Source: a virus. Taken from it: a DNA stretch of 26,239 bases. The stretch covers positions 7,857 to 34,095 of IMG/VR virus record IMGVR_UViG_3300030012_004288; one strand, given 5' to 3'. Every line of letters begins with the position of its first letter. Positions within the stretch are counted from its first letter, which is position 1. Of the stretch, positions 181 to 26,239 are shown piece by piece. Position numbers and translations under genes: made by a program. Below the pieces are notes generated by a model that saw nothing but the letters and a program-made list of their open reading frames with translations, did not search any database and was not told the DNA's origin.

Positions 181-189
181 GGAAATTAA

Positions 190-5208: not shown

Positions 5209-5219
5209 AGGAGAATAAA

Positions 5220-5715: not shown

Positions 5716-5717
5716 AA

Positions 5718-6463: not shown

Positions 6464-6687
6464 TGGCTAAAGAAGGACTAAGAAAGTGGTTCGGCAGAAA
6501 TAAAGGCAAGGGCTGGGTGGACTGTAAAACAGGAAAGCCTTGTGGAAGAAAATCTGCTAAAGGCGGAAGTAAAAGACCATACCCAGCATGTCGGCCAACA
6601 AAAGCACAATGTACTTCTGCTAAGAATCGTAAAAAAGGTCCAGCCCGTATTTCTTGGCAAAAGAAAAAAAAGAGCAAAAAGAAATGA
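6463..6687 (+). CDS. Small basic four-cysteine protein, 74 aa
   Basis: The start at 6463 overlaps the preceding stop (TAATG). The middle shows GWVDCKTGKPCGRKS and YPACRPTKAQC, placing cysteines at 21, 27, 43 and 50, a spacing compatible with a small zinc-binding knuckle. The flanks are Lys/Arg-rich, ending in a poly-Lys tail. I recall the same VDCKTGKPCGR...ACRPT pattern from marine phage small proteins of unknown function. It is part of the seven-gene basic cluster, translationally coupled on both sides. A nucleic-acid-binding role is inferred, not shown. Confidence 0.75.
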   Translation: MAKEGLRKWFGRNKGKGWVDCKTGKPCGRKSAKGGSKRPYPACRPTKAQCTSAKNRKKGPARISWQKKKKSKKK

Positions 6688-7016
6688 AACGAAAAGATCC
6701 ACCAAAAGGCACAGGCAAAAAACCAAAGGGTTCTGGTCGCAGATTGTATACCGACGAAAATCCAAAAGATACTGTTCCTGTTAAGTTTAGCAGCGTAAGT
6801 GATATTAAAAAAACACTAGGTCAAGCTAGTTTTAAATCTAAGTCTCATAAAAGACAATCTCAAATTATTAATCTTATTGAACAACGATCAAGAGTTGCTA
6901 AATCAAGAACAAAAGATCCCGCTAAAAAGAAAAGTTTAACTGCTGCTCATTCTTATATTTCTAAAAAGAAAGAAGCAAGTAAACGTAAAACCCAACAAAT
7001 GAGGAAAAAGAAATGA
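6684..7016 (+). CDS. Basic protein with RLYTDENPKDTVPVKF motif, 110 aa
   Basis: I choose ATG 6684, which overlaps the upstream TGA as ATGA. An in-frame ATG at 6654 would add ten residues but lies inside the previous gene without a better ribosome site. The product carries RRLYTDENPKDTVPVKF, then a segment with SHKRQSQIINLIEQR and a helical Lys-rich tail. These motifs recur together in small marine-phage proteins and in fusions. It ends with ATGA overlapping the next gene. Cysteine-free, unlike most cluster members. Function unknown. Confidence 0.75.
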   Translation: MKRKDPPKGTGKKPKGSGRRLYTDENPKDTVPVKFSSVSDIKKTLGQASFKSKSHKRQSQIINLIEQRSRVAKSRTKDPAKKKSLTAAHSYISKKKEASKRKTQQMRKKK

Positions 7017-7123
7017 AAAAACTATCACCAAAACAAAAGAAAATTGCATCTAAAGCAGCCCCTAAAAACAAAATTACTGGTGCTGATTTTAAAGCACTTA
7101 AGAAAAAGAAAGCTAAAAAATAA
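7013..7123 (+). CDS. Tiny basic protein, 36 aa
   Basis: The start at 7013 overlaps the previous stop (ATGA), and the TAA at 7121-7123 overlaps the next start (TAATG). The 36-residue product contains LSPKQKKIASKAAPKNKITG followed by ADFKAL and a poly-Lys end. 'Pro-rich start, then KITGADFKAL' is a short motif I recall in phage small proteins, which together with perfect coupling argues this is a real gene. Function unknown. Confidence 0.65.
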   Translation: MKKLSPKQKKIASKAAPKNKITGADFKALKKKKAKK

Positions 7124-7365
7124 TGGGAACTTCTAAGTCTTCTAAAAACTATAAAAAAAATCCAGCGTCCCGAAAGAAAAGGGTTAAAGCTCAAGCTAAG
7201 ATTAATAGAAGACCAGAAGAAAAAAAAAGAAGAGCCAGTTTAAATAAAGAGCGCAGAAAAAGAGGCATCTACGGAAAAGGCGGAAAAGATATTAGCCACC
7301 GAAAGGATGGAAGTGTCTTCTTAGAGTCGCCGAGAAAAAATCGCGCTAGAAAAGGCAAGGCATGA
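7123..7365 (+). CDS. Small basic protein with KNPASRKK / GNGKDxSH-type motif, 80 aa
   Basis: Starts at 7123 (TAATG overlap) and ends in ATGA overlap with the membrane-protein gene at 7362. It is Lys/Arg-rich and predicted mostly helical, with KNPASRKKRVKAQ, LNKERRKRGIYG, then DISHRKDGSVFLESPRKNRARKG. The last pattern (Gly-rich turn, 'SH', then 'ES..KNR.R') resembles small proteins in other marine tailed phages, where the function is uncharacterised. No cysteines. It closes the run of seven basic proteins. Confidence 0.75.
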   Translation: MGTSKSSKNYKKNPASRKKRVKAQAKINRRPEEKKRRASLNKERRKRGIYGKGGKDISHRKDGSVFLESPRKNRARKGKA

Positions 7366-7697
7366 GTAATTCTAAAGAAAAACATATTTGTGAATATTGT
7401 AATAAAAAAGAAGCCGATCATTTACAGTACGAATTAACTCAGTGCCAAAAAGCAAATAAAGCTAAAGATCAAAAAATACAAAAATTAGATAAAAAGATTT
7501 TTATTCTATTATGTATTGTTATTGGCATTGGAGCGGTGTTTGGAAAAGAAGCATTAGACAGTATCGTTGCTTGGTTAGAAACAATAAACTCTGTAAAATC
7601 CCAAGTAGATAATTTAACTGCCGCAGATATACCGGGTCCGGGTGCGTTGTGTGTATTAGCATGTACTCCGTTAATGGTCAGACCGAGAAGGAAATAA
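7362..7697 (+). CDS. Membrane protein with N-terminal CxxC, coiled coil and PEP-CTERM-like tail, 111 aa
   Basis: The N-terminus has HICEYC (C10, C13) with H20 and C28 following, a possible zinc site. A charged helix (about 30-45) leads to a membrane segment at about 46-60 (IFILLCIVIGIGAVF). A linker then precedes IPGPGALCVLACTPLMVRPRRK at residues 90-111: a Pro-Gly-Pro motif, a short hydrophobic stretch and a basic end. This resembles the PEP-CTERM sorting signal of bacterial exported proteins, especially variants with PGPGAL. PEP-CTERM substrates normally have a signal peptide, which is absent here, so the resemblance may be fortuitous. Alternatives are a holin or inner-membrane spanin. It sits directly before the terminase gene. 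Confidence 0.65.
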   Translation: MSNSKEKHICEYCNKKEADHLQYELTQCQKANKAKDQKIQKLDKKIFILLCIVIGIGAVFGKEALDSIVAWLETINSVKSQVDNLTAADIPGPGALCVLACTPLMVRPRRK

Positions 7698-7698
7698 T

Positions 7699-9378
7699 AT
7701 GAATGTTCCCCAAGAAATGTTAGATGATTTTAGAAATCACATGTGGGCTTGTTTTAAGTATTTAGGATTGGGCGAACCCACACCAGCGCAGTACGCAATG
7801 GCAGATGCTTTACAGAGTGGAGCTAAAGATATGCAGCTTCAGGCGGGCCGTGGTTTTGGTAAATCAGTTATCACTTCTTGTTTAGCATCTTGGTTTCTTC
7901 TTAAAGATCCAAATAGCACCATTATGGTTGTTTCTGCTACTGGACAAAAAGCAGTAGAGTTTATTTCTATGACCAGACGAATTATTGACTTAGTTCCTTA
8001 TTGTTTTAACATGAAGCCGGGAGAAGGAACTATTGATAATGCTTTTTCTTTTAATATACAAAATAGAACAAAAATTGGACAAGATAGATCTTGCTATGCT
8101 AGAGGTATTACTGGACAAATTACAGGATCTCATGCTGATTATTTGATTTTTGATGATATTGAAATAGAGGGGAATTGTGAAACAACTCAAGCTAGACATA
8201 AGCTACTTAATAAAGCCCTTGAGGCAGAGCAGATTAGGAATGTTGGCGGCAGGGTTATCCTTCTAGGAACCCCTCAAACTAAAGATTCAATTTATAATAT
8301 CCTGAAGGAAGGATACCCTGTTGTCAAATTCCCTGCTATTATGCCTGATCCAAATATCCCATCTGAAATTGAAGATGTATCAGAATGGATTAAGTCTTTG
8401 CAAATCGAGCCGGGAGAGCCTACTCAACCAGAAAGATTTAGCAAAGAGGTCTTAATGGAAAGACAAGCTAAAGTAGGACCAACTCTTTTTGGACTACATT
8501 ATAAGTTAGATACAAGTCTAGCAGATGCCGGAAAGTACCCTCTTAAACTAGAGGATTTGGTAGTATTAGATTTTAATCATGAACTGGTTCCAGAAAAAGT
8601 AGTATGGGCCGCTTCTACTGAAAATAAAAAAGTACCCTCATTTGGCATGTCGGGAGATAAAGTATACGAGCCTATGTGGATCTCTGAGAGCTTCATAGAG
8701 CCACAGCAGAAGTTTATGTTCGTAGACCCTTCGGGACGCGGCAAAGACGAGACGGCCTATTGTGTGGCCTCTACATCCTGTGGATACATATTTATCCATG
8801 AACTAAGCGGCATGGAGGGTGGATATGAAGAGGCTGTTTTAAAGAAGATCTGTAAAATAGCTCTAGAAAACGATGTTCAAGCAATTATAGTAGAATCTAA
8901 CTATGGCGATGCTATGTTTAATAAGCTTCTAATTCCTGTAATGCAAAAGATTTGTCCTGATATTGGTCTTATGGAAGAAAAAGTTACAGGAGCAAAAGAA
9001 GCAAGAATTGTTAGAATTTTAGAACCAGTAATGTCTCAACATCGTCTTTGTTTTAATACAAAAGCTATTAAGGAAAAAGAAACACAAATTCAAATTACTC
9101 GCTTAACAGAACGAAGAGGAGCTTTGGCACATGATGACCGGGTTGATGTTTTGTCCTTGGCCGTTAATCAATGGAAAGATCATCTCACATATGATGTTGA
9201 CGCATTGATTGAAAAGAACCAAGAAAAAGAATCTATGAAAATTGTTGAAGGATGGATGTCCGAAGATAGAGTTGGTAATTTATTTGGAGACAAAATCTCA
9301 GGGGGTTATCGTTATGTTGATAGAAAACGGGCCGACCTAAGACATAGACCTATTCTTAGGGGCCGAAGGAATAGATAA
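7699..9378 (+). CDS. terL: Terminase large subunit (T7 gp19-like packaging ATPase/nuclease), 559 aa
   Basis: This is the DNA-packaging motor: an N-terminal ATPase pumps DNA into the prohead and a C-terminal RNase H-fold nuclease cuts concatemers. Walker A is AGRGFGKS (residues about 49-56). Walker B is LIFDDIE (150-156). The coupling motif is VILLGTPQ (187-194). In the nuclease domain the acidic residues are D344 in FVDPSGRGKDE, E400 in IIVESNYGD and D481/D484 in HDDRVDVL. The length matches T7-type large subunits (about 590). AAGGAA (7688-7693) supports ATG 7699. The stop overlaps the next start (TAATG). Codons around 8640-8830 are locally richer in G+C than the rest of the gene. Confidence 0.95.
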   Translation: MNVPQEMLDDFRNHMWACFKYLGLGEPTPAQYAMADALQSGAKDMQLQAGRGFGKSVITSCLASWFLLKDPNSTIMVVSATGQKAVEFISMTRRIIDLVPYCFNMKPGEGTIDNAFSFNIQNRTKIGQDRSCYARGITGQITGSHADYLIFDDIEIEGNCETTQARHKLLNKALEAEQIRNVGGRVILLGTPQTKDSIYNILKEGYPVVKFPAIMPDPNIPSEIEDVSEWIKSLQIEPGEPTQPERFSKEVLMERQAKVGPTLFGLHYKLDTSLADAGKYPLKLEDLVVLDFNHELVPEKVVWAASTENKKVPSFGMSGDKVYEPMWISESFIEPQQKFMFVDPSGRGKDETAYCVASTSCGYIFIHELSGMEGGYEEAVLKKICKIALENDVQAIIVESNYGDAMFNKLLIPVMQKICPDIGLMEEKVTGAKEARIVRILEPVMSQHRLCFNTKAIKEKETQIQITRLTERRGALAHDDRVDVLSLAVNQWKDHLTYDVDALIEKNQEKESMKIVEGWMSEDRVGNLFGDKISGGYRYVDRKRADLRHRPILRGRRNR

Positions 9379-9878
9379 TGTTTGTAGTTACCGGAGCGGG
9401 ACCAAGAGTTGGAACTTCTTTTTTAATGCATGAGATTAAAAAAATGGGAATACCCGTTGTGGGTAAAAGGTTTCCATATTGGGCTGTTAAAGAAGAAAAC
9501 GAAAACGGCTACTACGAAATAAATCCTTGGACAAATTTATATGGAATTCATCATCAAGACTGGAAAGGGAAAGCAGTAAAGCTTTGGCCTCCCGTTTTAG
9601 AAAATACTCCAGTTGATAATATAAGCAAACTTATTATTTTAGAGCGAAAAGATCAAGATAAACAAATTAAAAGCATAGAAAGAGTTCTTCCTAAAGAATT
9701 AAAAAAACTAGGATGGGAGCTACCAGAAAACTCTCCATCTGCTTTAGAACTAATAAATAAATCTACAGATATTATCGAAGAATATCTTAGATACTATAAT
9801 TCTTCTTTTATAAATGTATATACAGAAGATTTAGATGATTCTCTTGTTTTAATAAAAAACTTTTTAAAGGAGCCATAA
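9378..9878 (+). CDS. P-loop protein, sulfotransferase- or nucleotide-kinase-like, 166 aa
   Basis: The N-terminus is FVVTGAGPRVGTS followed by FLMHEIKKMGIPVVG. A beta strand leading into GxGPRxGTS and then a helix is the phosphate-binding loop seen in the sulfotransferase superfamily (PRSGTS type) and related P-loop folds. At 166 residues it is shorter than most sulfotransferases (about 250-300), and I see no clear 3'-phosphate motif. The C-terminal INVYTEDLDD segment is acidic. The gene is coupled to terL (TAATG) and followed by the gp14-like gene, so it is cotranscribed with virion genes. It may modify a virion component or be a packaging accessory; substrate unknown. Confidence 0.6.
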   Translation: MFVVTGAGPRVGTSFLMHEIKKMGIPVVGKRFPYWAVKEENENGYYEINPWTNLYGIHHQDWKGKAVKLWPPVLENTPVDNISKLIILERKDQDKQIKSIERVLPKELKKLGWELPENSPSALELINKSTDIIEEYLRYYNSSFINVYTEDLDDSLVLIKNFLKEP

Positions 9879-9880
9879 AA

Positions 9881-10516
9881 ATGCCAGCGTTTATTGCATT
9901 AGGAGCAATTGGAGTTGCCGGTGGTGTCTTTAGTGGCATCTTAGGTTCTCAACAAGAAAAAGCAAATAGAGCTGCTCAAATTGCACAAATTAGATATCAA
10001 AATACTGTTCGTGGAATTCAAACAGATTTAAATAACATTCAAACGTTAGAAAAATGGGGCGCACAGTTTAAACAAGCAAAACTACAAGCCTTAGCAGCAG
10101 GAGCCAGATCTGGACAAAAAAAAGAATATCTTAGACAGGCTTTAGGAAATCAATTTAAACAAGTAGGAAATCAAACATCTTCTATTAATGCATCTTTAAT
10201 TAGTAAGGCAAACGGAAAAGGCCTTAGTTCTTCTAGTGGAACTGTAAAAGCTATTATGAGACAAAATATGTTAAAATCATCTGAGTCAAATGCAGCTATT
10301 ATTTCTAATTATAAAAAGCAGATAAAAAATATAGACTCTGAGCTTGCTGGTTCTATTAGTTCTGCTCAGTTTTTACAGCCTGCATTACAAGAATTTTTTG
10401 CCGCCTCTGAAGATATTCCAGATAATAGTGGATCAATATTAGCTGCTGGTATTGTAAATGGTATTGTGGGCGGCGTTAGTACCGGACTTAGTACAAAGCT
10501 ACAAACTGAGGGATAA
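9881..10516 (+). CDS. Internal virion protein, T7 gp14-like, 211 aa
   Basis: The product has a hydrophobic Gly/Ala-rich N-terminus (residues about 3-22), a long Gln/Ala/Lys-rich helix (RAAQIAQIRYQN onward), and a hydrophobic Gly-rich C-terminus (AAGIVNGIVGGVSTGLS). This is the layout of T7 gp14 (196 aa), the ejected protein that forms a channel in the outer membrane. The gene order, directly before very large gp15/gp16-like genes, supports the call. AAGGAG lies 8-13 bases before ATG 9881, which begins two bases after the previous stop. Sequence similarity to T7 itself is low, so the call rests on layout and context. Confidence 0.65.
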   Translation: MPAFIALGAIGVAGGVFSGILGSQQEKANRAAQIAQIRYQNTVRGIQTDLNNIQTLEKWGAQFKQAKLQALAAGARSGQKKEYLRQALGNQFKQVGNQTSSINASLISKANGKGLSSSSGTVKAIMRQNMLKSSESNAAIISNYKKQIKNIDSELAGSISSAQFLQPALQEFFAASEDIPDNSGSILAAGIVNGIVGGVSTGLSTKLQTEG

Positions 10517-10518
10517 CA

Positions 10519-11604
10519 ATGACTAAAGAAGAATCTTTACAAAAACTTGAAGAAATTGCTAGTGAGTCTGGGCAACAAAACGCAGATTATAATACACTGG
10601 ATTTACAACTAAAACAACACACTTCCAATGTTAGCATTAAAAAATCAGAAGAACTAGCTCAACAGGTTCAACGTCTATATCCAGAAGATCGACAAAAGGC
10701 TTTTGATACATGGAATGCCGGTACAAGAGACTTTGATTTGAACCCAGCAACAAAAGAATATTATTGGAAGACTTATGAAAAACTAAGTCCAGATCCTTCA
10801 TTTTATAAAGAAGGATTATCAACTCAAGTTAAAGATAAATTAAGAAAACTAAAAACTACATCTGAAAAAGAATTTTATATCAGAGACAATCTTAACAAGT
10901 GGCCCAACTGGCTTTCTTCTCAGTACGAGGCTTCTCTTGCTGGTTTAATGATGGTAAATCAAACAAAAGACATGCTAAAGGGAGAGGTGTCTTATAGAGA
11001 AAATACTTTAGATAGAGTAAACACCCTTTTACAAAATTCTGATCTTGGTTCAGATATCAATGAAGATGATCATGTTCAAGATATATTAAAATTAGAAACA
11101 ATGGGATTTCTAGAAGGAGCTACTATTTATGATGGAAGAATTGGAGTACTAAATAAAGAAAATGAGTTCCAACCAGCTTGGTCAATAAAAAGTTCTAAAG
11201 AAATATCAGAAGAAGTTCCTCAACCTCTACCTGCCGAAGCTTCCTTTTTAAGAGATTCTGTTCTTCCAGAAATAAAAGACTTAGTATCTGTTAATTTAAA
11301 TAACTCAAGAAATAAGATTAAAGAACAGAACGAAGAAATTAAATTTATTATGTTAAATGAAATAAGCCAAGGAAATATTTCAATGGATAAGTGGGGAGAC
11401 GTAGCCTCAATGATTGAAGAACCGCAAGAAGATAGCATTGGCTCTCTTATGTTTCTATTTAGCGAAGGAATCAAAGGAATGATTAGACAAGCTGAAGAAG
11501 AAACTGATGAACCCATGAAAGAAACTGAAATTAATGACATGATTATGCTTGCTTTTATCAAGTATGCTAATCTTTTTGGAGAACTATATAATGGCGAAGC
11601 GTAA
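10519..11604 (+). CDS. Hypothetical virion-module protein, 361 aa
   Basis: The start at 10519 follows the previous stop by two bases, with a modest GAGGGA ribosome site. The product is acidic, largely helical and cysteine-free, with repeated Leu/Lys/Glu heptad-like stretches (EESLQKLEEIASES at the N-terminus; ENTLDRVNTLLQ mid-protein) and no membrane segment. Its position between the gp14-like and gp15-like genes suggests an internal core component or a scaffold or assembly helper for the core. T7 has no gene in this slot. The 3' end overlaps the next gene by 14 bases. No known family recognised. Confidence 0.75.
   Translation: MTKEESLQKLEEIASESGQQNADYNTLDLQLKQHTSNVSIKKSEELAQQVQRLYPEDRQKAFDTWNAGTRDFDLNPATKEYYWKTYEKLSPDPSFYKEGLSTQVKDKLRKLKTTSEKEFYIRDNLNKWPNWLSSQYEASLAGLMMVNQTKDMLKGEVSYRENTLDRVNTLLQNSDLGSDINEDDHVQDILKLETMGFLEGATIYDGRIGVLNKENEFQPAWSIKSSKEISEEVPQPLPAEASFLRDSVLPEIKDLVSVNLNNSRNKIKEQNEEIKFIMLNEISQGNISMDKWGDVASMIEEPQEDSIGSLMFLFSEGIKGMIRQAEEETDEPMKETEINDMIMLAFIKYANLFGELYNGEA
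11578..11581 (+). promoter_or_regulatory. Shine-Dalgarno GGAG deciding the start at 11591
   Basis: GGAG lies 9 bases before ATG 11591. The upstream in-frame ATG at 11549 lacks a comparable site and would overlap the previous gene by 56 bases. I therefore start the gp15-like gene at 11591 (MAKRNF). Confidence 0.6.
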
Positions 11605-14600
11605 TTTTATGCAGACTCCCGAACAAAGGGAAAGAGCAAACTACTACTCAAAGAAAAGAAGACAACAAGTTTCTGGTCTACCTCTTATTCAAGAGCAGAT
11701 GGTAGAAGAACAATTTATCGAAACCCCTGAAGTTGTAGAACAAGAGCCTGTATTTGAATATGCTACCCCAAGTATGCCTTCATCCCAAGAAGTCGCTGCA
11801 ACATTTGACACAGGAACCGCTGGAATGTGGTCAGATGTAGTAGATAACATTACAGGAAGTATAATGGGTGTTACTCAAGATGTCTTTGAGTTTAATGCAA
11901 AAAGAAAAATAGAAAAAAGAAAATTAACTTTAGATAAATATAGCGCAGACACCGCTGAGTATGATGCAGTTGCGAAAAAAATTGACGATGCTTTTACTAT
12001 TAGACTAGAGGGCGGGAACGCAGAGATAATAAACATTCCTGAAGCCATTAAACGAGAAAAAATTAATGGTATGTTAGAATTAAGTAAAAAAATCTATATA
12101 CAAAACAATGGTTCAGAAGAATTGCAATCTTCAATCCAAGAAGAATTATCCGCTAGAGGAATTGAAGATTCTTTTGACAGTCTTTCTGGACAACAACAGC
12201 TAGATATTATGGAAACCATTTTTATTCAATCTGATAGTTTACTTTTTGGAGAAGCAATTAGACAAGACAGAGAACAACAGTGGTTAGATATTATGGCAGC
12301 CGTAGAAGGAAAAGACTATGGCAAGATGACAGAAAATTTAACAAAATATAGAGATAAGTTAAATCAAGCTGTATTAAGCCAAAAAGGACTTGCTGATCAA
12401 GAATTTGCAAATGATGCCCTTAACAATTCCCTGTCTTCCACAAATTTAGACCTAGCGGTTGTTGATACAGCAATGGGTGGAAACTTTGATGTTTTAGAAA
12501 ACCTTGTTACTTCTAACGGCGTACAAGCATTTAATATACAACGAAACGATCAAGGCGAAGTTGTTAGCATTGGATTTAATGGATCCCCCGAGCAGTTCAT
12601 GGCAGATGAACAGACAAGAAACATAGCATCATTAGTATTCGCCCAACAACTAAGAAGCCAGTTTCCAAGTAACAGTATTGAAAACATACCAGAACGAATC
12701 TCACTAGGATTAAAAGCACTTGCCGCAGGGGATACTGATGAGCCTTTTGCTATTACATCTTTGCTTTTTCTTTCTGATTTTGATGATGAATCTATTGAAG
12801 GTTTAGTAAGCAGAGGAGATAAGATAGGAGGCTTAGGCATTAATAATACAGATCAAAACAGATTAATGACCATGCTTACCCTTCATAAATACTTAGGTAG
12901 TGATGAGCCGGGTAAAAATAGAGATACTCAAAGAACTTTAAATGAGTTTGATAGAATCTGGGATTCTAAATCATTTAATTCTGCTTATACTTCATTAGCT
13001 TCTGCTTCTGATGAAAAAGGAATTGTAAGCAAAAGACAAGAAATTATCAAAAGCTTTCTAGGAAGAATGGGTATAGAGGACGAAGAGTATGATCCTCTAG
13101 CTTATAACTTTGAAGTTGGAGATAATCCATCTCTAGGTTCTTTAATGGTTCTTCTTTATCAAATAAATCAAAGAACTAATTTATCAGAGGAACAAAAGAC
13201 AAACATATCAAATGCAATATATAATAACGCAAGAGCAGTTCCTATATTTAGAGAAATAGACGGAGAAAGAAAACTAGTAGATCTGCAACTTAGAAATAGT
13301 ACAGATCACGCTATTTTTCAAATGGGGATTAAGAGTTTTGATGATAGAGTTTTCTACGAAGATGCGGCAGGACAATCAGAAAGAAACGATATTGAAGATG
13401 TCAATATTATTTTAAATAACCTAGCTCCAGAAACCCGAAGAGGTTTTGATATAGACGAACTTGAAGAAGCAACTATTCAAGCACTAGAAGAGACCAAGAA
13501 ACGCGAAATGAACGAACTTGATCGTCAGCGTAAACCAGTGCTAGATCCTGCTAGATATAGATTGAGTACTCTTAACTATAACGAAACAGTGTTTCTAATG
13601 ACCCCTTCGGTTCAGCAAGAATTATTTGACAATTTCCCAGAGGGAAGTGGGCTAGTAGAACCTAATTCTATTGAAAATCTTTTAGCTAACTTCGACATGC
13701 TTTCAGTTGGGCAAAGAATATCAAATATTGAATACTCTCCTAGTACTAATTTATCAAGACAAGAGAGAAACAACGCAAACTACGGTTCTTCTTCGTTTGG
13801 CTATGGAATCAAATCTATAGAATTTAACGGAGAAGTAATTAATGTAGAAGATTCTTTTGCATCTAGAAACAGAACCGGAATGGTATTTCCTTCCGTGTAT
13901 TCTGATATGTATACTGAAGATGGCGAGGTAAAAGCAGGAAATCTTCCTCCTAGACCTGTGGGAAGATCTATTGCTTTTTGGAAGTATGTTACTGGACAAA
14001 CAGGAACAATGCGAGGAGCCGGAGTAGATGAATTAACTACTGAAGATGTTTCTGAAAAAGATATGAGAGAAACTAAGATTTTAGCAGATGATCCTAAAAA
14101 TTATCAAGATATTTTATTTTATCAACAAAGCCCCGGATGGTTCGAATCATCAGTATACGAATGGTATAATTGGCTTGATGAAAAATATGAACAATCAGAA
14201 ATAGTATATGAAAAAGCTGCTCCTATTATAATGGAGACGGTTAATCAATATCTTTCTCAAGCAGAAACGGGAGCAAGAGTATTAGCAGATGTCTCTCCAG
14301 AACCAATTAGAAATGCCATAGATCAAACCTTAGATAATCTTCCAGATCAGTTTAGTCAAGTAGAAAAAGCAATTACAGAAGATTTAGTTATAGCTGCAAT
14401 AAATTCTATAGATGAAGTAATAGAAGCACCCGGTATGGTTGCGGATGCTGCATTGAGAGAAGCACCCAAGCTTTTGAGTCTACCAAATCAAATTGTAGAT
14501 GCTGTAAAAAAATCATACTTACAAACTATTAGATGGTTGGGAAGATCATCTGAAGAACAACATATAGATTTAATGATGGAAGAGGCAAGCAGATCTTCAG

Positions 14601-14974: not shown

Positions 14975-17900
14975 TGGGCATCGGGAATAAATTCAACCTT
15001 CCTCTTCAGTATCAATCACAATACGATTTTGATGCTTATAAAGACAATATCGTTGAGTGGAGCTTTACGAGAGAAAGACCCAGACACTTTTTGTATGCAT
15101 ATTCCGACAATATGAGACCAGATGCTACTATAGATCATATTAAAGATGCTCGTAATTACTCAAGATTAAATGGATTAGAAACTCCCGATTTAGGAGAAAC
15201 TCTATCGACAGAGCTTTTTTTAGGTGCTGAATATGGATTTTCAGGATTTGTAGGAGAAGATGTTGCAGGTGCTGCCTACAGAAGATCTTATCTTACAGAT
15301 ACTTCAGAGAATGTATACGCTCCACTAGGAAGAACAGGAGATAAAGCCCCTGCTCCCACTCCAGAGGGGGCTGGAATTTTTGGTAGTGAGTTAGTAACTA
15401 AATTTACAGAGCTATTTTCTAGTGGTTCTGCTCTTGGTAATTTATTTCTAGGTACTTCTCCATATCAAGATGTTATTGATAACCTAGATTATAGAGAAAC
15501 CGATGAAAAATATTTAGATGCTGCTGGTGAATTTAAGTCAATGGAATACTTTCAAGATACATTCGCAGAAAACTATCATTTAATGTCAACTCTAGATAGG
15601 GTTGGTTTTAGTAGAGATGAAATACTACGAACTAAAAACAAAAGAACTTTAGATTATCTAGTGTTAAGAGCAGTAGCTAGATCTTCGATGGAAGACAAAA
15701 TTGCTAAGTATGATGAAGCCGCTGGTTTCTACAATGGAACTTTTGCAAGAATGATTTTAAATCTTCCCGCTCTTATCTATAACGACCCTGACTTACCTGC
15801 AACTCTTGGAGTAGGTGCTGTAGTAGGTGGATTAGTTAAAATAGGAAAAGGCGCATTAAAGGGCATAGGAAAATCACTATCCAGAGAATTCTCAGAAGAA
15901 GCTGTAGATGGTTTTACTAGACAGGCCTTGCGTCAAAAAACAGGAATGGCTGCTGCTCGTATTTTTAAACAAGCAGGTAAATCAAGTTCATTTGCAAAGT
16001 ATGTTCAAAATGGATTTAAGCTAGAGGCAAATGCTTTAAAAAGATACAAACTATTAGATCTTGGAGCTAAGGGTATTGTTATAGCTGGATTCCAAGGCGG
16101 GGTAAGTGATATTGTATCTCAGGGTAATGTCATTAATGAAGCCGGAGTACTGGGGCGAATAAACGATCAAGATTCAGAATTTGATTACAACAGACTTTTA
16201 ATGGCAACAGCCGCAAGTGCAGTATTTGGCGGTACTATTTCCGGTGTAGCTGGAGCTTTTGCAAGACCACGAAACGCATCAATTGATGCTTCTAGGAACT
16301 TATCTTCTGCCTTAACTGATGTATCAGAAGCCCAACTTGCTGCCGGACGGTCTTATGTAGAAGGAACTCCTTTACTAGAAGATCTTTCTGTATCAAAATC
16401 TGTAAATGAAGCAGAATCTAAACAAACCGTTAGAGATGTTTCTAGAACTGAAGAATCTCCTCTAATTAAAGCGGTAGATAAACGAGATCCAGAAACAAGT
16501 AGATATATTATATCAGAAGCCAAGGAAGATCCAAACGAAAAAGTATCTGATGTTATTAGAACAAAAGATGTTGCTAAAAAACAAAGGTTTGCTGCTAACA
16601 TTGATAAGTCAATTGCTAAGGTTGAAAAAAGACTACGAGAAAAAGCAGAAAAAACCGGTGAGCTATCTGCTAGAGATGCTGCATTCTTAGGTACTTTAAA
16701 AAGACAAGCAGAGAATATTAAAAGAAAAGCAGGTGTTTCTGAAAAAGCAATTGTTCCAGCAAGAGAAGCTTTGGATTCTCCTCAAAAACGAGAAGGGTTA
16801 ACTAAAAATTCTGTTGTGCTTCCTGAACAAGAACAAATAATGTTAAAAAAATCAGGTAAGACACTAAAAGAAAATAGCGTAAAAACAAGAGGAAGAACAA
16901 AAGGAACAATAGGGCAAACATTAAATAGAAAACAAAAAGCTCATGCAAAAAAAGCAATTAAAAGTAGAAAATATTTTGAAGATATAAGCCCAGAACACAA
17001 GAGACTACATGATTTCTTTGAAGAAATGGAACTACCTCCCGGTGTTATTTTAATGTTAAGAGGAGTTTTTTCTAACGAAAATAGTAGATATTTACAAAAC
17101 CTTGTCTACAAATTTGTAGATGATCCTAATGTTAATAGATTAGGATCTTTTGCACCAAGATACGGCGATGTTGATTTAGAAACCCCTGTTACTATAAGTA
17201 AATTATTAGTAAAAGGATCGGGCGATGGTGTAAGATATTTCACAGATGTAGAAATAGCTAAGGTTATAATTCATGAAATTGCTGGTCACGGTTTCATGGA
17301 TACATTTAGTATTAGTGAACAACTTTTAGTTAAAAGAGCATACGAAGATCCAGAAATTAGATCAGTGTTTAAAGAAATGATTTCAGACTATTTTGAAGAA
17401 ATAATGGGACCAAAAGCGAGATTAAGGGGTGAATATGCCATATCTAATGTAGATGAGTTTTTTGCTGCTGTTTCAGAAATGGTTCTTTTTGACAGATATG
17501 ATAGAGTAGGTCTTATTGATTATGCTATGAATTTATCGGTAGGATTAGATACTACAAAACGATTTAACCTTATTCAACTAATATCAGTTATCTATAATAA
17601 GGTAGGAGAAAAAATCTCAGAAGCACTAAACACAGTTTTAATGACAGTTGGAGATTTTGAAGAAGCTCAAAGATTCTTTAGAGATAAAGATTTTGATCCA
17701 GAACAACAAAAGGTTTTAGGACAATTAGCTGATTTAAGAAAAGAAATTGAAGATGATATGTCTTTAGTTGGTAAAGATGATAGGTATATAACCGCTACCG
17801 AATATGTTGGAGCTGCTGTATCAGCGCAGCGACACGCTATGATACAAGTTCTTGACGGAAATTTTTTGAAAAATGAACTTAAAAAACCAGCTTCTGAAAG

Positions 17901-20900
17901 ATCTCCTTTAGTAAATAAACTTTCTTCTATTACTGATAAAGTATTCAATGATGATACTTATACACTAAAAGATCTTGAACGCGAATTAAGAGAACTTGGT
18001 GATCAGTCTAGAGAATTAATAGCTAAAGATTACTCTATAGGAGACTTTCTAAAGTTTGTTCGCCTTTTACAAGATTCTACCTCTTCTTTTTCACGATTTA
18101 TAATAGCTGAAGTAGATAGCGGTGATATTACGTTTAAAGATATACTTAGTGAACGAGCATTAATGAGAGTAATTTTAGATCCTTTAAGATTAGAATACGA
18201 AATACATTATGCTGAATTAAATAAAGGCTTATCTGATGCTGAAATTAAAAAAATTGTTGATAAAGAGATGGAGTATAAAACAGATAGTATTAGACACCAA
18301 CTAGAGATAGTTCAAAGTGATAGATGGGGTTTAGAATTAGGTCATATTGAACAAGCAATGCCTTTTATGGTAGATACTGGTCTTCTTGAATTAATCTATC
18401 CCGGCGTAACAGCAAGAAGAGAAACTGTAAAATCTATAGCTAGATTAAATAGAGATCAAAGAATTAAAGCTTACTTAAACAACCAACCTGATCCCGGCAG
18501 ACGAACTGTTTTAGATAGTAAAGCAAGTGAACTTGTTGAAAGAATTAAAAAACAAGAAGACCTAGATAAAATTGAACAAACTCTTGAAGAGATTGAGACT
18601 GCTCAACTAAACGATCTTACTGGACCAAAAACAAAGTCTATTATTAATAAGGTTCATAAGCGAGGGTTTATTAGCGATAAAGAAAAAGAAGCTCTTCTTA
18701 GACAAAGAGATGAACTAGCCGCAGAGGCAAAAAGAACAAGAGAGAGGGCTGACTGGGAAGATTTTGTTAGTGAAATCGAAACAACACTTCGTTTACAAAT
18801 TGAAAAGAAAATAAATAAGTTTATTGCTAAAGGACATGAAGATCTTAAAATCAGTGACTTAATTCAGCTAGAGAATGGCATTGAAAATGGATTTATTGTT
18901 GTAGAAGATGGAAAACTAAGACGGGCAGAAGTAAAGGTTTCTGAGGTTACAGAAGCAATAACAACAGATAAGGTTATTGAAACATCAAACGAAAACCCAA
19001 ACAATCCAGTAGAAGCTGTATTAGAAAACGTAAATCAAATAGCAAAAGAAACCACAGAAATAATCGAAGATGCAGGGCTTGATTCAGAAACAACAAGAGT
19101 AATTAAAGAAGAAAATATTGCTGATGAAAGTCTTCCTCTAACAGAAGACGGTAAAATTGATGTTGTTGTTTTCTTAGCTAACGAAAAAAATCTAGGAGCT
19201 GTTAGAAGAATTATTGGATCTAGACTAAGAGATCCAAATGATGTTGATGATGCTATTGGTGGTTTATATCTTAAAGCAGCAGAAGAAAGATTTAATCCTG
19301 ATCCTGCTAATACTACAACAAAAAGTCTAATAAACTTCTTGGCTAAAGCCGGTATAAATGATACTATAAAAGCAAGCGAAAAGGTCAGGGGAGTAAGAAA
19401 GAGAAAAACAACAGATATAGATACAGGCGAAGAGGTTATAGAAAAAGTCGCTACTATCAGTTCTTTTGGCGAAGACCCAGCAGCGGCTGCTGTTAGAGAT
19501 CCCGGTGCTGTTTCTCTTAGAGGAACAGAAAGAGGAGAAAAAGTCAAAAGTAAAGTATTTGCAACAGTAGATGATTATTTAGAACAAGGCTATTTTACAG
19601 AAAGAGATGCTTGGATTATCAAAACATCTTTTGAAGCAATTGGAAATAAGAAACTAAAAGTAGAAGAATTACGAGCTAGATGGAATTCTCAATTTAATGA
19701 AAATATAGGCAGAGAAGCGTTTGCGACCGCTGTTAGAAGAGCAAAACAAAAGTTTGCAGAAGGCGATGATATTGAAGTTGATATGAATAAAACTGAAGCC
19801 TTGATCCCAGTCAAAAAGGATACAGAACCCGCAAAACCAAAGGTTGTTGAAGAAGCTGTATCTCCTGAAGATACTGTAGAAACTACTCCTATTTTTGAGC
19901 CAGAAAAAGACACCGTATCTGTTATTGAAAACGAAGCATCTACAGGAATTGTTGATGTATCAGCTAAAGATATTAAAAAGGCTAACACGGAAACAATTAC
20001 TTCTGATGACTCTGTTTCTTCTAAATCTAATAAAAATGCTGTTAAGAAAGCTAAGACTGGAGAACCAGTTGAGCTTACTATTAGTGTAACTAGAACAAAT
20101 ACAAGAAAACCAGCAAAGATAGAAATAGGATCTACAAATAAGAAAAGAGCCGAAGCAAATAGACAGGATGTAGAAAAAGTAGAAACAGGAGAAAAGAAAA
20201 CCACTGTTATCACTACTGCAACTGTAAGACCAGAAAATCCCGTTGTTACAAGAGAACCCATTACAACTGTAGAAGATCTTATTGATTTAATCCCCAATGA
20301 TTTATTAATTGTAGAAGGGGTTAGTACTGCTATTCTTAAATCTACATTACTAAAAACAGTTACCATACTAAGAGACATGGGTGAACTAAAATCAAGACAA
20401 GATCAATATGATTTTGTTATGAAATATCTTAAAGATTCTCATGGAATTGATGCTGTCATTAAGGTAGAGGGAGAAGAGGCAATAATCTTACTTCCTCCAG
20501 ATCTTCCAAGAAATAATATTTCTAATGAAGTTCACTATCCAAATGGACAAGTTAAATCGGATACCATTAAGATTGATGAAGATTCTCAACTTCTAAATGA
20601 AGACGGAACACCAAAACCACTAGACCAAAGAGATGAGCATGTAGTTCAAAATGGAGTAGAAGTTCGTGATGAGACCGTTATTGAAACAGAATCAAGTGTT
20701 CGTGATGTTGAAAAAGATTCTTTACAAGATCAGATTGAATCCTTCATTCTATCTGACAATGAGTTCTTAAATAACTTAGGTGCTGACATTCCTCTCGTAT
20801 CAAGACTTATTGCTCTCTTCCCAGACTACGTTACATCTTTCGACAGTGTATCTAGATTAGTTGGCGGTTTCTTAATGGAAACCAAAAAGATTATTGACAG

Positions 20901-23900: not shown

Positions 23901-24777
23901 CTACAATGTGTTTACAAACTATGGCAATAGAACCTCGCCCAAGTATCTAATTGGTACTCTCATGATGGCAGGCATTGCTAACGCCGTAGCGATGACCTTC
24001 AGACAGTGGATTAGAGGTAGAGACCCAGAAGACATTCTCCTTGAGATGGAAGAAGATCCCCTAAGATTCCTTGCTCTATCCGTTCAAGGTATTCCCGCGC
24101 TGGGAAGATTCAACTCAATTATCGATGGCGGAGTTGCTGGTATTCAGATGATGGTCGGAAGCACTCCCCAGCATCTATTCTCACCATTTGGTGTACCGGG
24201 ACTTGAAGCACTGCCAAAAGCAGGTACTGATATAGCTAGAGGATTCAACAAGACTTACGATTATATTTCTGGACAAAATAATACAACTGGTGTGGATGCA
24301 GCCGCTGCCTTGACTAAATCCGCACAACTTGACGGAATGATCAATAACTCATTCCTTGCCCTCCCAGTTCGTATATTTGAAAGTGCAGATATTATGAAGG
24401 AAGGAAATGCCTTAAGAGAATATCTAGATACTGTTCAATACGCAGAAACCCCATATCAAGATGCCGCAAAGAGGAGTAAAACTAAGTTTAAAATTAATAG
24501 TATTGATAATATTAGAAACTCCAGCCTCAGGGAAGATATGGCAGTAATGGATGCAAAGAGAGAAAATCTCAAGAGGTCTCTTAAGATTAATAGTATTTCT
24601 CCTCAAGAAATGAAAGAGAGAGTACAGAAGAACTTCTCCATACAGACCGGAGACTTCTACAGAAGCCCTCGGAAGGCTGAGATGACCCCGGAGGCCTCTG
24701 AAACCTTAGAATCGTTTAGAGAGCCTTCTAGAGCCTCTCAGAAGCTTGCTGATATTCTAGAGGAGCAAGATGAGTAG
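14974..24777 (+). CDS. Giant ejected core protein (gp16-like), 3267 aa, with metallopeptidase-like and sigma-like segments
   Basis: GGAG (14962-14965) supports ATG 14974. Hydrophobic Gly/Ala-rich stretches lie at about 273-296, 363-385 and 408-430, and again near 2960-3060 (YLIGTLMMAGIANAVAMTF), as in membrane-inserting ejection proteins. Residues 767-772 are HEIAGH, the HExxGH zinc-site pattern, with possible third ligands E828 or E835 in DEFFAAVSE. Residues about 1395-1480 and 1524-1597 resemble sigma regions 2 and 4. About 1600-1800 is a Thr/Glu/Lys/Val-rich linker. The rest is helical. T7 gp16 is 1318 aa and carries a transglycosylase; none is visible here. Size and multi-domain make-up resemble phage large polyvalent proteins. 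G+C rises near the 3' end (24,660-24,720 about 53% by count). Confidence 0.75.
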   Translation: MGIGNKFNLPLQYQSQYDFDAYKDNIVEWSFTRERPRHFLYAYSDNMRPDATIDHIKDARNYSRLNGLETPDLGETLSTELFLGAEYGFSGFVGEDVAGAAYRRSYLTDTSENVYAPLGRTGDKAPAPTPEGAGIFGSELVTKFTELFSSGSALGNLFLGTSPYQDVIDNLDYRETDEKYLDAAGEFKSMEYFQDTFAENYHLMSTLDRVGFSRDEILRTKNKRTLDYLVLRAVARSSMEDKIAKYDEAAGFYNGTFARMILNLPALIYNDPDLPATLGVGAVVGGLVKIGKGALKGIGKSLSREFSEEAVDGFTRQALRQKTGMAAARIFKQAGKSSSFAKYVQNGFKLEANALKRYKLLDLGAKGIVIAGFQGGVSDIVSQGNVINEAGVLGRINDQDSEFDYNRLLMATAASAVFGGTISGVAGAFARPRNASIDASRNLSSALTDVSEAQLAAGRSYVEGTPLLEDLSVSKSVNEAESKQTVRDVSRTEESPLIKAVDKRDPETSRYIISEAKEDPNEKVSDVIRTKDVAKKQRFAANIDKSIAKVEKRLREKAEKTGELSARDAAFLGTLKRQAENIKRKAGVSEKAIVPAREALDSPQKREGLTKNSVVLPEQEQIMLKKSGKTLKENSVKTRGRTKGTIGQTLNRKQKAHAKKAIKSRKYFEDISPEHKRLHDFFEEMELPPGVILMLRGVFSNENSRYLQNLVYKFVDDPNVNRLGSFAPRYGDVDLETPVTISKLLVKGSGDGVRYFTDVEIAKVIIHEIAGHGFMDTFSISEQLLVKRAYEDPEIRSVFKEMISDYFEEIMGPKARLRGEYAISNVDEFFAAVSEMVLFDRYDRVGLIDYAMNLSVGLDTTKRFNLIQLISVIYNKVGEKISEALNTVLMTVGDFEEAQRFFRDKDFDPEQQKVLGQLADLRKEIEDDMSLVGKDDRYITATEYVGAAVSAQRHAMIQVLDGNFLKNELKKPASERSPLVNKLSSITDKVFNDDTYTLKDLERELRELGDQSRELIAKDYSIGDFLKFVRLLQDSTSSFSRFIIAEVDSGDITFKDILSERALMRVILDPLRLEYEIHYAELNKGLSDAEIKKIVDKEMEYKTDSIRHQLEIVQSDRWGLELGHIEQAMPFMVDTGLLELIYPGVTARRETVKSIARLNRDQRIKAYLNNQPDPGRRTVLDSKASELVERIKKQEDLDKIEQTLEEIETAQLNDLTGPKTKSIINKVHKRGFISDKEKEALLRQRDELAAEAKRTRERADWEDFVSEIETTLRLQIEKKINKFIAKGHEDLKISDLIQLENGIENGFIVVEDGKLRRAEVKVSEVTEAITTDKVIETSNENPNNPVEAVLENVNQIAKETTEIIEDAGLDSETTRVIKEENIADESLPLTEDGKIDVVVFLANEKNLGAVRRIIGSRLRDPNDVDDAIGGLYLKAAEERFNPDPANTTTKSLINFLAKAGINDTIKASEKVRGVRKRKTTDIDTGEEVIEKVATISSFGEDPAAAAVRDPGAVSLRGTERGEKVKSKVFATVDDYLEQGYFTERDAWIIKTSFEAIGNKKLKVEELRARWNSQFNENIGREAFATAVRRAKQKFAEGDDIEVDMNKTEALIPVKKDTEPAKPKVVEEAVSPEDTVETTPIFEPEKDTVSVIENEASTGIVDVSAKDIKKANTETITSDDSVSSKSNKNAVKKAKTGEPVELTISVTRTNTRKPAKIEIGSTNKKRAEANRQDVEKVETGEKKTTVITTATVRPENPVVTREPITTVEDLIDLIPNDLLIVEGVSTAILKSTLLKTVTILRDMGELKSRQDQYDFVMKYLKDSHGIDAVIKVEGEEAIILLPPDLPRNNISNEVHYPNGQVKSDTIKIDEDSQLLNEDGTPKPLDQRDEHVVQNGVEVRDETVIETESSVRDVEKDSLQDQIESFILSDNEFLNNLGADIPLVSRLIALFPDYVTSFDSVSRLVGGFLMETKKIIDRNLANYGDEGVKFYWQTVLELRMENDVLKQRIANMKEKGETVAANLIRKVKTVDEIYESAAIITTKKFKDKKKAAFVAPLTPEKYDPVTGSKVFETAQQKAEREVKEIGGGSKKRTILRKFFNKKSGDNHRYVRAQGLVGAVFGGEDSSASNWWRKAMTNIVLFAQVGSGLKDTVYSHVDVLMALSKFVDNTKLHTGHFINGGKRPIKTWMQSDALVKRRMGRLTQRRARLLRLSKKAFPVVMKYVHDTRINKGKITKGDLINALKESDVPLEKVNQVVDKLFPALEDFNRELTDIYRQIFDLQEETGWKFINEIEGSDKLDPETYIPITFDANRIEGNLEEVVQAMTNVRRKSIKERDTIHKSLMYALGWLPSTFEETDPVSNLFKKDRDIDGKAITNNRDLLSRVVETQLDSESLDNLTLARTLTNPLDSVGANERLYGRLGRAWFVVKQEDEYLVVKIPNKLDELSVADRAKYQKAVDGDVTDYTPTHLEILKRSKNDDIIQAEMMELLSFKLGRGVYGSGVKIGVNNTPILGLADPAKKGSGVWIQNITPEEVAMDGSLAQFIQIDPTLTTLDFMNGRLFELHAQRELDRLLGSKGIRMYEFLSEAESIAINRIENEGHSPKDTDMLVKSVKNGMKKLREQYSMYSQHLSQIDDDYSSLAVNAGTLSQNLLTSAVSWGFGVLALTETILVKSGYGIDNVLHPANIVKDTALLIRNILGDLRYDRAADRIEVADTIFAFDLLNRNNSARFLSELDEGVQLTSGLMEKIFGPRRGAIPERIDSGPLGFVQRRVSNLAYFAREVGSLQQVTNANRMMATPKYTRMFIKLIKGNKIDELISVLETKEVRSKIKKLEEEAVTDRSKQAELVKYIKGLAREVGGMDYQTVSSLLQYGLLNRKSIDALRLGFKESGLRVDGGRIDLMQLNNFVLDLRTNKRKVEGLDPDVLEDAIDSLTFMVEQLVITRAITETQGLAQGTGVVARHPLGRLLTSLFGWINAFHYNVFTNYGNRTSPKYLIGTLMMAGIANAVAMTFRQWIRGRDPEDILLEMEEDPLRFLALSVQGIPALGRFNSIIDGGVAGIQMMVGSTPQHLFSPFGVPGLEALPKAGTDIARGFNKTYDYISGQNNTTGVDAAAALTKSAQLDGMINNSFLALPVRIFESADIMKEGNALREYLDTVQYAETPYQDAAKRSKTKFKINSIDNIRNSSLREDMAVMDAKRENLKRSLKINSISPQEMKERVQKNFSIQTGDFYRSPRKAEMTPEASETLESFREPSRASQKLADILEEQDE
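17272..17460 (+). other. HExxGH metallopeptidase-like site within the giant protein
   Basis: The codons at 17272-17289 encode H767-E-I-A-G-H772. This spacing (three residues between E and the second H) is that of dipeptidyl-peptidase III (HELLGH) and of zincin domains I recall in phage polyvalent proteins, rather than classic HExxH. The segment VDEFFAAVSEM about 60 residues later supplies E828 and E835 as candidate third ligands, fitting a gluzincin arrangement. Activity is not shown; it could cleave peptide cross-links, other core proteins or a host factor. Confidence 0.55.
19156..19770 (+). other. Sigma factor-like segment within the giant protein
   Basis: Residues about 1395-1480 read as a region-2-like helical bundle: RLRDPNDVDDAIGGLYLKAA resembles the ECF 'D-x-E-D-LvQ-xxFL' core, followed by INFLAKAGINDTIKA and then a basic RGVRKRK end. 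After a linker with EDPAAAAV, residues about 1524-1597 resemble region 4: TERDAWII, a hairpin, then LKVEELRARW and REAFATAVRRAKQKF, like a helix-turn-helix ending in the typical 'v..RAkqKl'. The usual Gln of region 2.2 is Gly here. The match is by eye only. Confidence 0.45.
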
Positions 24778-25178: not shown

Positions 25179-25285
25179 CGTAAAAATCGACTAGGGGTCA
25201 CAAATCTGTAGATACCCCCGCTGTCACGGCGTTCCAGCCGCACCCCCGTTACCCCCCACGACCACTATAACCCTCCCGCCATTGC

Positions 25286-25300
25286 GATTGAGACTCAATC
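25286..25300. repeat. Dyad GATTGAG-A-CTCAATC
   Basis: Seven-bp arms around a single central base form a compact near-palindrome just beyond the 3' end of the minus-strand frame at 25305. The tiny centre suits a protein-binding dyad better than an RNA hairpin, and no T-run follows on either strand within a few bases. Confidence 0.5.
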
Positions 25301-25304
25301 TCAA

Positions 25305-25508
25305 CTAGACGTTTTTCGGTCGATTCGGCGCGGGATGACCGATTTCGGCATCTCGGCGGTTGTCTAGTGTCCCAACCGGGACGACAACGACGAGAACCTT
25401 CCAACCCTCGTCTTCACGAACGCAGTGCCGGATGAAACCGGACGCACCGTCCTGAGACATGGTAACAAAGGCGCACCCGCGCTGGGCCTCGGTGGAACGA
25501 GAGATCAT
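25305..25508 (-). CDS. Possible small hypothetical protein, 67 aa
   Basis: Read on the minus strand, ATG at 25508 opens 67 codons to TAG at 25305. Codons are consistently of the GGT/CGT/GTT/GTC/TCC/ACC type, similar to the gene at 26038, and the product (CAFVTMSQDGASGF, then EDEGWKVLVVVVPVG) looks like a folded alpha/beta protein rather than a shadow. Third-position G+C exceeds first and second positions in the part I counted. Against it: no clear Shine-Dalgarno before the ATG, only one strand-specific start, and a plus-strand frame that is also largely open in the same codon register. I recognise no family. Confidence 0.4.
   Translation of the reverse strand: MISRSTEAQRGCAFVTMSQDGASGFIRHCVREDEGWKVLVVVVPVGTLDNRRDAEIGHPAPNRPKNV
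25359..25388. repeat. Nested inverted repeat (11-bp stem with bulge)
   Basis: GTTGTC (25359-25364) and GTCCC (25369-25373) pair with GGGAC (25378-25382) and GACAAC (25383-25388) around an AACC loop, with a four-base TAGT bulge on one side. It lies inside the minus-strand frame. Confidence 0.55.
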
Positions 25509-25544
25509 GTAGGTGTATGTTGAAGTGCGAGATTCCTATGGGAT

Positions 25545-25593
25545 GCGCCTATCAAAAGCCCGGATTCTAATCCGTGGGCTATCGAGAAGGCGC
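25545..25593. repeat. Nested inverted repeat GCGCCT...AGGCGC with inner AGCCC/GGGCT hairpin
   Basis: The outer arms are 25545-25550 and 25588-25593 (6 bp). The inner arms AGCCC-GGAT (25557-25565) and ATCC-GT-GGGCT (25570-25580) enclose a TCTA loop. On the minus strand the inner hairpin is followed by TTTTGAT, so it could also act as a weak intrinsic terminator for leftward transcripts. I tested it as a tRNA arm and it does not fit. Confidence 0.5.
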
Positions 25594-25727
25594 GAGGTAT
25601 CACGGGGAACGTATCGCTGGGCCTGCTTTTTTCGGGGCCGCGTAAGCCGATACCCTCAAACATATCCGGAGTCTATGGCTACGTTTATCGCAACGCTATA
25701 GTCTCGAACCACGAACAGTCGGGCGAA

Positions 25728-25910
25728 ATGGAATTCTCGCGTCAGGTGCAACTCCTGCAACCCCGCTATGCCAATGGTGTTTTTCCCGATGGTGCGACCG
25801 GAGGTGTCTGCTTGAACGATAGCCGACCATCCTACTCCTCCACCCGTACCGTGACGGACGAGCTTCCTGCGGACTCACATAGCGGTCGGATAGTCGATGG
25901 GTATATCTAA
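25728..25910 (+). CDS. Doubtful plus-strand frame, 60 aa, possibly the end of a longer or broken gene
   Basis: The ATG at 25728 opens 60 codons to TAA 25908-25910. The frame is in fact open from 25524 (128 codons without a usual start) and, apart from TGA at 25521 and TAG at 25365, back to about 25281. The predicted residues (GVYGYVYRNAIVSNHEQSG, then QVQLLQPRYANGVFPDGATG) look protein-like. There is no ribosome site before the ATG. It may be a decayed or recoded gene, or chance in GC-rich DNA. No family recognised. Confidence 0.25.
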   Translation: MEFSRQVQLLQPRYANGVFPDGATGGVCLNDSRPSYSSTRTVTDELPADSHSGRIVDGYI

Positions 25911-25955
25911 CGGAACGAACGACCATTCGTGGTCACGGACCCGTTAGATATACCC
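25899..25955. repeat. Perfect 15-bp inverted repeat with inner hairpin
   Basis: GGGTATATCTAACGG (25899-25913) is the exact reverse complement of CCGTTAGATATACCC (25941-25955). The 27-base centre contains GACCA-TTCG-TGGTC (25921-25934). The left arm includes the TAA that ends the upstream plus-strand frame. The right arm can pair alternatively with 25980-25995. Confidence 0.8.
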
Positions 25956-25995
25956 TTGGCATCCATCTCCGGATGGGTTCCAAGGGTGTATCTAA
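25944..25995 (+). promoter_or_regulatory. Long hairpin before the gene at 26038; alternative to the 25899-25955 structure
   Basis: TTAGATATACCCTTGG (25944-25959) pairs with CCAAGGGTGTATCTAA (25980-25995), 16 pairs with one T-G wobble. Inside, CATCC (25960-25964) pairs with GGATG (25971-25975). No T-run follows, so it is not a standard intrinsic terminator. Because it shares an arm with the upstream inverted repeat, the two folds exclude each other, as in attenuators. Confidence 0.6.
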
Positions 25996-26026
25996 TGTAG
26001 ATATGCTATCATCGAAACAGTCATTT

Positions 26027-26030
26027 GGAG
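26027..26030 (+). promoter_or_regulatory. Shine-Dalgarno GGAG for the gene at 26038
   Basis: GGAG followed by seven bases and ATG 26038. Upstream, TATGCTATCAT (26002-26012) could hold a -10 element, but no convincing -35 was found at 17 bases. Confidence 0.55.
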
Positions 26031-26037
26031 AAATCAC

Positions 26038-26239
26038 ATGACTAACGCTATCGCTCCCGTCCCTTCCCGTCTCTTCGGTCTCGGTGCTAAGGATCTCCTC
26101 GCTTACGCTGCGGATGGTCCCGAGAACCGCGATCAGGTTCTGGCCGTGTTCAAGACCCGTCTTGCGAACAATGTGAAGAATGGCAAGGATCGTCGTGCTG
26201 CGGCTAACAAGCGCAACATCGACCGTGTGGAAGCTATCA
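26038..26239 (+). CDS. Start of a highly codon-biased gene of unknown function (partial)
   Basis: ATG 26038 follows GGAG and runs open to the window edge (67 complete codons). The product begins MTNAIAPVPSRLFGLGAKDL and continues with LAYAADGPENRD and a basic helical segment (NNVKNGKDRRAANKRNIDR). Codons are nearly all of the preferred GGT/CGT/ATC/AAC/CTC/GTC/AAG type, which suggests strong expression in a host with moderate-to-high G+C. That differs sharply from the AT-rich genes upstream. The complex inverted repeats at 25899-25995 lie directly upstream and may control it. I do not recognise the family, and the C-terminus is missing. Confidence 0.7.
   Translation, partial: MTNAIAPVPSRLFGLGAKDLLAYAADGPENRDQVLAVFKTRLANNVKNGKDRRAAANKRNIDRVEAI

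Follow-up and report, generated by a model that had tools for sequence, protein, structure and literature searches.

The window analysed here, 26,239 nucleotides long, comprises bases 7857–34095 of a 34,095-bp IMG/VR virus contig from a short-tailed, probably marine phage, represented by metagenome sequence alone. Its large terminase subunit is of the T7 type and is followed by genes for proteins of 361, 1141 and 3267 aa, that is, by the gene order gp14–gp15–gp16 (table 1); the labels gp14 and gp15 are positional, as is gp16-like. The first protein of the contig is read, from its order and sequence, as a T7 tail-tubular type, and early genes are absent from the 34,095-bp contig. The window terminase matched 2611 phage records; the best cultured matches, many of them to marine and freshwater phages, are ~40% identical.

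On the 3' side of the giant gene lies a GC-rich stretch (25200–26000; GC 0.44–0.60 vs about 0.31–0.46 around it), and an Rfam search of this tail of the window returned zero matches. After the giant gene there is no ORF longer than 80 aa until 25933, and positions 25524–26238 have an 83% identical counterpart on the contig of L002, one of the two relatives described below.

Table 1. Features of the locus, in window coordinates unless a contig is named
Feature	Residues	Coordinates	Strand	Basis
T7-type terminase large subunit, 559 aa		7699..9378	+	phrog_38, E 2e-95
gp14-position protein, 361 aa		10519..11604	+	ORF, gene order
gp15-position protein, 1141 aa		11549..14974	+	ORF, gene order
Giant protein, gp16 position, 3267 aa		14974..24777	+	ORF, translation, homologues
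Hydrophobic segment, N-terminal of sigma module	408-426	16195..16251	+	hydropathy
HEIAGH zincin-like motif, invariant in 3/3 homologues	767-772	17272..17289	+	alignment, motif scan
Invariant E within EFFA	E828	17455-17466	+	alignment of three homologues
Sigma-like module	1393-1598	19150..19767	+	profile searches, alignments
Sigma region 2-like domain, three predicted helices	1396-1480	19159..19413	+	PF04542 match, L002 over cut-off, hhalign, AF2
Region 2-region 4 linker (RKRK; ATISSFGEDPAAAAVRDPGAVSLRGTERGE)	1481-1527	19414..19554	+	alignment
Sigma region 4-like helices, probable (TERDAWIIK...KVEELRARW...GREAFATAVRRAKQKF)	1528-1597	19555..19764	+	hhalign with controls
Hydrophobic segment, C-terminal of sigma module	2991-3009	23944..24000	+	hydropathy
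G008 giant ORF with RNAP-like motifs	2006, 2126, 2260	L070:4312-19731	+	motif scan

The giant protein and its relatives

Three homologous giant proteins are known, from the window (3267 aa), L002 (3235 aa) and G017 (3579 aa). L002 was the sole homologue returned by the whole-protein search of IMG/VR, and the G017 contig (65,036 bp) was found through a terminase search, its terminase protein being 100% identical to that of the window. Searches of the IMG/VR contigs with the segment, with the full-length protein, with alignments and with a conserved DNA pattern found nothing beyond these two, and among cultured phages no relative of the giant protein or of its module was found. The DNA of G017 is 96–98% identical to window positions 1–11925, a short gap excepted, and divergence begins inside the gp15 gene. 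Beyond this break at about 11925 (gp15 codon about 125), the remainder of gp15 and the homologous giant protein are 29–40% identical at the protein level, as if the gp15–gp16 module had been swapped by recombination.

Pfam MPTase did not match the giant protein, so the zincin assignment of its HEIAGH motif holds at motif level only. The G017 giant protein (P0004, L066:2602-13338, minus strand) contains an ART-PolyVal domain (PF18760, E 2e-22) at residues 1323–1485, upstream of its sigma module; a Pfam scan did not find this domain in the window protein. The ART-PolyVal family was described from polyvalent proteins, a class injected by phages along with the DNA, and the survey of those proteins never mentions sigma factors, with 0 occurrences of the word (Iyer et al. 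2017, PMC5512222). The features of that class recur here in a giant multidomain phage protein with a zincin-like HExxH motif (HEIAGH) and with effector domains, namely ART-PolyVal in G017 and the sigma module.

The original prediction called the protein gp16-like and considered what would follow if such proteins are injected. Gene position and size fit an injected gp16-like protein, and PHROG and PDB profile searches detected no homology to T7 gp14, gp15 or gp16, for which reason we infer injection from context. As in T7 gp16, the gene is third after those in the gp14 and gp15 positions and hydrophobic segments flank a long middle part; unlike gp16 (1318 aa), the window protein is 2.5 times longer, has no detected sequence homology to it, and no transglycosylase domain was found. 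Taken together, gene order, size, hydrophobic segments, HEIAGH and the ART-PolyVal domain of G017 make it very probable that the giant protein is ejected with the DNA.

Evidence for a sigma-like module

Sigma factors are the bacterial proteins that set where RNA polymerase begins transcription. The original prediction placed a sigma-like module, with ECF-like regions 2 and 4 in that order, in the middle of the giant protein; the ORF and the quoted peptides were as described, all 205 residues translating as given. A six-frame search of the entire contig with PF04542 (Sigma70_r2) produced a single match, at 19183–19308 (E 0.0035, 12.7 bits), which lies below the 24-bit cut-off and taken alone is suggestive only. 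Plain hmmscan of the window segment and the whole protein against Pfam, PHROGs and NCBIfam gave no sigma match, nor did a phmmer/profile search of PDB sequences with the module, and the window copy falls under every curated cut-off. The L002 copy, 47% identical to that of the window, scores 24.5 bits against PF04542 (E 2.4e-5), over the cut-off, and matches NCBIfam TIGR02937 (sigma70-ECF) across profile positions 8–162 of 165 (E 5.5e-7; 29.4 bits against a family cut-off of 42.9).

A reference profile of 61 ECF sigmas, 60 from eight gammaproteobacterial genomes plus Escherichia coli RpoE, aligned the L002 copy across regions 2.1–2.4, including NKVIDRVRK, with 20.4 bits. The profile-profile comparison proposed with the original prediction was run with hhalign, using a profile of the three proteins against these 61 sigmas: module windows scored 45–46 with 92–93% probability (best 92.6%), vs 20.6 and 3.6% for the best non-module window among 70 sliding control windows of the three giant proteins. 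The module sits at the same place in all three, and its descent from the sigma-70 superfamily is well supported by these comparisons. Weak TIGR02937 matches in G010 and at G001:1326-1631 were rejected, as they are short or lie antisense to a different ORF.

Of the two regions, region 2 has the stronger support, and it keeps sigma landmarks at 44% identity between window and L002 and 23% between window and G017. Helix 2 is DPNDVDDAIGGLYLKAA and helix 3 is TKSLINFLAKAGINDTIKASEKVR; D1423, D1426 and A1427 of helix 2.2 are invariant in the three copies, the canonical Gln of region 2.2 has been replaced by Gly or Asn in every copy, Phe-Leu-Ala (FLA) is kept in region 2.3 where Trp-Leu is usual, and the canonical region 2.4 of L002 (NKVIDRVRK) corresponds to an altered one in the window (NDTIKASEK). 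The RKRK peptide, at first assigned to region 2, belongs instead to the linker and is missing from both relatives, the linker being well conserved between window and L002 from ATISS onward.

Region 4 is split by an inserted coiled coil in L002 and G017. Aligned alone with hhalign it scored 26.4 (75% probability), vs 17.2 (10%) for the best of 127 control windows, and this evidence is the weaker because the L002 insertion was taken out of the alignment by hand. A Pfam search of the region 4 piece gave no r4 match, and a five-row alignment did not bring the region 4 pieces into register; we regard the presence of region 4 as probable, not proven. The module as first described thus stands for region 2, through the Pfam match of the relative and the profile-profile comparison, and for the order of the sigma regions, with region 4 on weaker footing.

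Like ECF sigmas (TIGR02937/PF04542), the module combines a region 2 profile match, a region 2-then-4 order, acidic residues in 2.2 and an aromatic-Leu pair in 2.3; unlike them, it is embedded in a 3267-aa protein, lacks the region 2.2 Gln and carries a coiled-coil insertion in two copies. Parts of the module are 42–60% identical to L002, compared with 37% for the preceding linker and 81% for the C-terminal core. With the region 2.2 Gln replaced and region 4 divergent, and interrupted in two of the three copies, core binding or −35 recognition has possibly been lost, and the module may differ from a standard ECF sigma in how it binds core polymerase, or may have ceased to bind it.

An AF2 model of the window segment, built from a three-row alignment, had an overall pLDDT of 63, with 75–88 across most of model residues 1–70 and lower values beyond, and formed region 2 with its three main helices in sigma2 order. 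Foldseek against 350,542 PDB chains ranked the ECF sigmas SigH/SigL 1–4 and RpoE 6–7, with sigma E values of 0.2–1.3 (best 0.22) that are not significant. In the L002 segment (pLDDT 68) a coiled coil dominates and sigmas appear only at ranks 12 and 27; for both segments region 2 was modelled and region 4, at low confidence, was not. The structural check suggested with the original prediction therefore returned the region 2 helices and ECF sigmas at the top of the ranking, at nonsignificant E values and with region 4 unfolded. The predicted structure is consistent with sigma2, without being proof of it, and is silent on region 4.

A putative injected sigma factor and its alternatives

We give about an even chance to the reading that ECF-like regions 2 and 4 were grafted into the middle of the protein and that the injected sigma steers host RNA polymerase to early promoters. 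Judging from gene order and architecture, the giant protein would be packed in the capsid and leave with the DNA, and its N- and C-terminal hydrophobic parts would sit in the inner membrane, like those of T7 gp16, with the middle part and its sigma module reaching the cytoplasm. There region 2 would contact the beta-prime coiled coil of the host RNA polymerase core, and the host polymerase would be guided to promoters in the part of the phage genome that enters first. Early genes, including that for the phage's own T7-type RNA polymerase, would be transcribed immediately, and such transcription would possibly pull DNA into the cell. In T7, the first 850 bp are drawn in by gp16, and after hand-over by gp16-C the host RNA polymerase imports the rest, transcribing from promoters at the leading end (PMC8954989).

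The nearest relative, G017, encodes a T7-type RNA polymerase (818–819 aa), the gene for which would be an early target of the module. The G017 phage also encodes a free 161-aa sigma-70-family protein (L068:13834-14316, minus strand; G017:C1 53834-54316; TIGR02937 E 5.7e-10, phrog_351 E 8e-8), so that phage-directed use of the host polymerase belongs to the biology of this lineage. In the intergenic DNA of G017 no shared repeated promoter-like motif was evident, the repeated words being mostly A-rich.

Several other readings of the module were weighed. It is rather unlikely that the domain, though derived from a sigma factor, has no part in promoter recognition and holds the host RNA polymerase core through the beta-prime coiled coil, either as an anchor at the ejectosome or as a decoy that shuts host transcription off. 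Such a role would suit the better support for region 2 and the coiled-coil interruption of region 4 in L002 and G017, and giant polyvalent proteins often bear host-takeover activities such as ART; against it, the profile signal of region 4 exceeds all controls and L002 retains a region 2.4-like NKVIDRVRK helix. A decayed sigma relic serving as a mere helical spacer would account for a window copy of only 12.7 bits, for the missing region 2.2 Gln and for the fast evolution of the linkers around the module. We nevertheless consider this unlikely, given that the landmarks persist in three copies at 23–44% region 2 identity, that the location is the same in all three proteins, and that the module (42–60% identical to L002) shows no less conservation than the linker preceding it (37%).

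The two remaining alternatives concern the setting of the module and its very identity. That the giant protein is made late and works within the infected host, for instance as a late sigma, would agree with the absence of sequence homology to T7 gp16 and with ejection being purely a deduction from context. We hold it to be quite improbable for a giant protein that follows the genes in the gp14 and gp15 positions, is hydrophobic on both sides of the module and has a homologue with ART-PolyVal. Helical low-complexity stretches can mimic sigma factors, and the window copy alone is below threshold; a chance resemblance is nonetheless highly improbable in view of the independent Pfam and NCBIfam matches in L002 and a profile-profile signal that is unique among 70 windows.

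Sister phages and known takeover systems

Sister phages, defined by terminases 63–68% identical, have giant proteins of 2767–5729 aa. These contain motifs resembling C (IHDS/IHDA), A (DGNFNGIHH) and B (R-x3-K-x7-YG) of T7-type RNA polymerases (RNAPs), in the order C–A–B, most clearly in G008, G018, G010 and G005 and more loosely in G022, G026 and G025; the giant proteins of G022 and G023 likewise carry RNAP-like motifs. An alignment of six sister proteins has 13 invariant columns, which include the HD of motif C, the D of motif A and the K and Y of motif B. Each motif alone aligns best with its own counterpart in the T7-type RNAPs of the phages, at low hhalign probability; Pfam RNA_pol reached just E 0.026 with the sister giant proteins, and PDB profile searches with them returned nothing significant. 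Motifs A, B and C are all missing from the window protein (P0002) and from L002, G017 is without A and C, and the window protein has no Pfam RNA_pol match. The sister giant proteins may thus hold an RNAP-like module, perhaps a permuted single-subunit virion RNA polymerase, which we present as a lead, not a result.

Two T7-type RNAP genes are found in each of G008, G015 and G018, encoding proteins of about 815–822 aa and about 595–705 aa. Near the second of these genes, small ORFs (90–112 aa) at G008:24750-24857 and G018:38201-38308 match the region 4 end only of sigma70-ECF (E 4e-5 and 8e-5).

The analogy with the N4 virion RNA polymerase drawn in the original prediction is apt, in that the sisters bear RNAP-like motifs at the same locus. 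N4 gp50 (Schitoviridae) shares with the window protein a length of about 3,300–3,500 aa, a transcription module in mid-protein and an HExxH zincin-like motif elsewhere (PMC12633501); the window protein differs in having a sigma module, not a single-subunit RNAP, and in its association with a T7-type terminase. Like the phage sigmas T4 gp55 and PHROG 351, of which G017 likewise encodes a free example, the module would recruit host core polymerase, the difference being that those sigmas are free proteins made after infection, outside any giant, probably injected protein. It is possible, at somewhat short of an even chance, that this phage injects a sigma in its ejection machine and that its sisters have a giant protein with an RNAP-like module at that locus, the ejection protein acting as a swappable carrier for transcription takeover.

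A sigma domain in a gp16-type protein had been thought undescribed, and none was found in the literature searched, nor any report of one in a virion, ejection or polyvalent protein; the scope of that search left out most subscription papers and bioRxiv, and absence from it is not proof. To our knowledge, few routes exist by which a phage secures transcription in the first moments of infection: the use of host promoters (T7), injection of a polymerase (N4, phiKZ) and injection of a host-polymerase-modifying enzyme (T4 Alt). An injected sigma, if the reading favored here is true, would be another and cheaper route, in which the host core is borrowed and the phage supplies the address alone. Ejection proteins would then become testable as transcription factors that act at the site of entry and couple transcription to DNA uptake.
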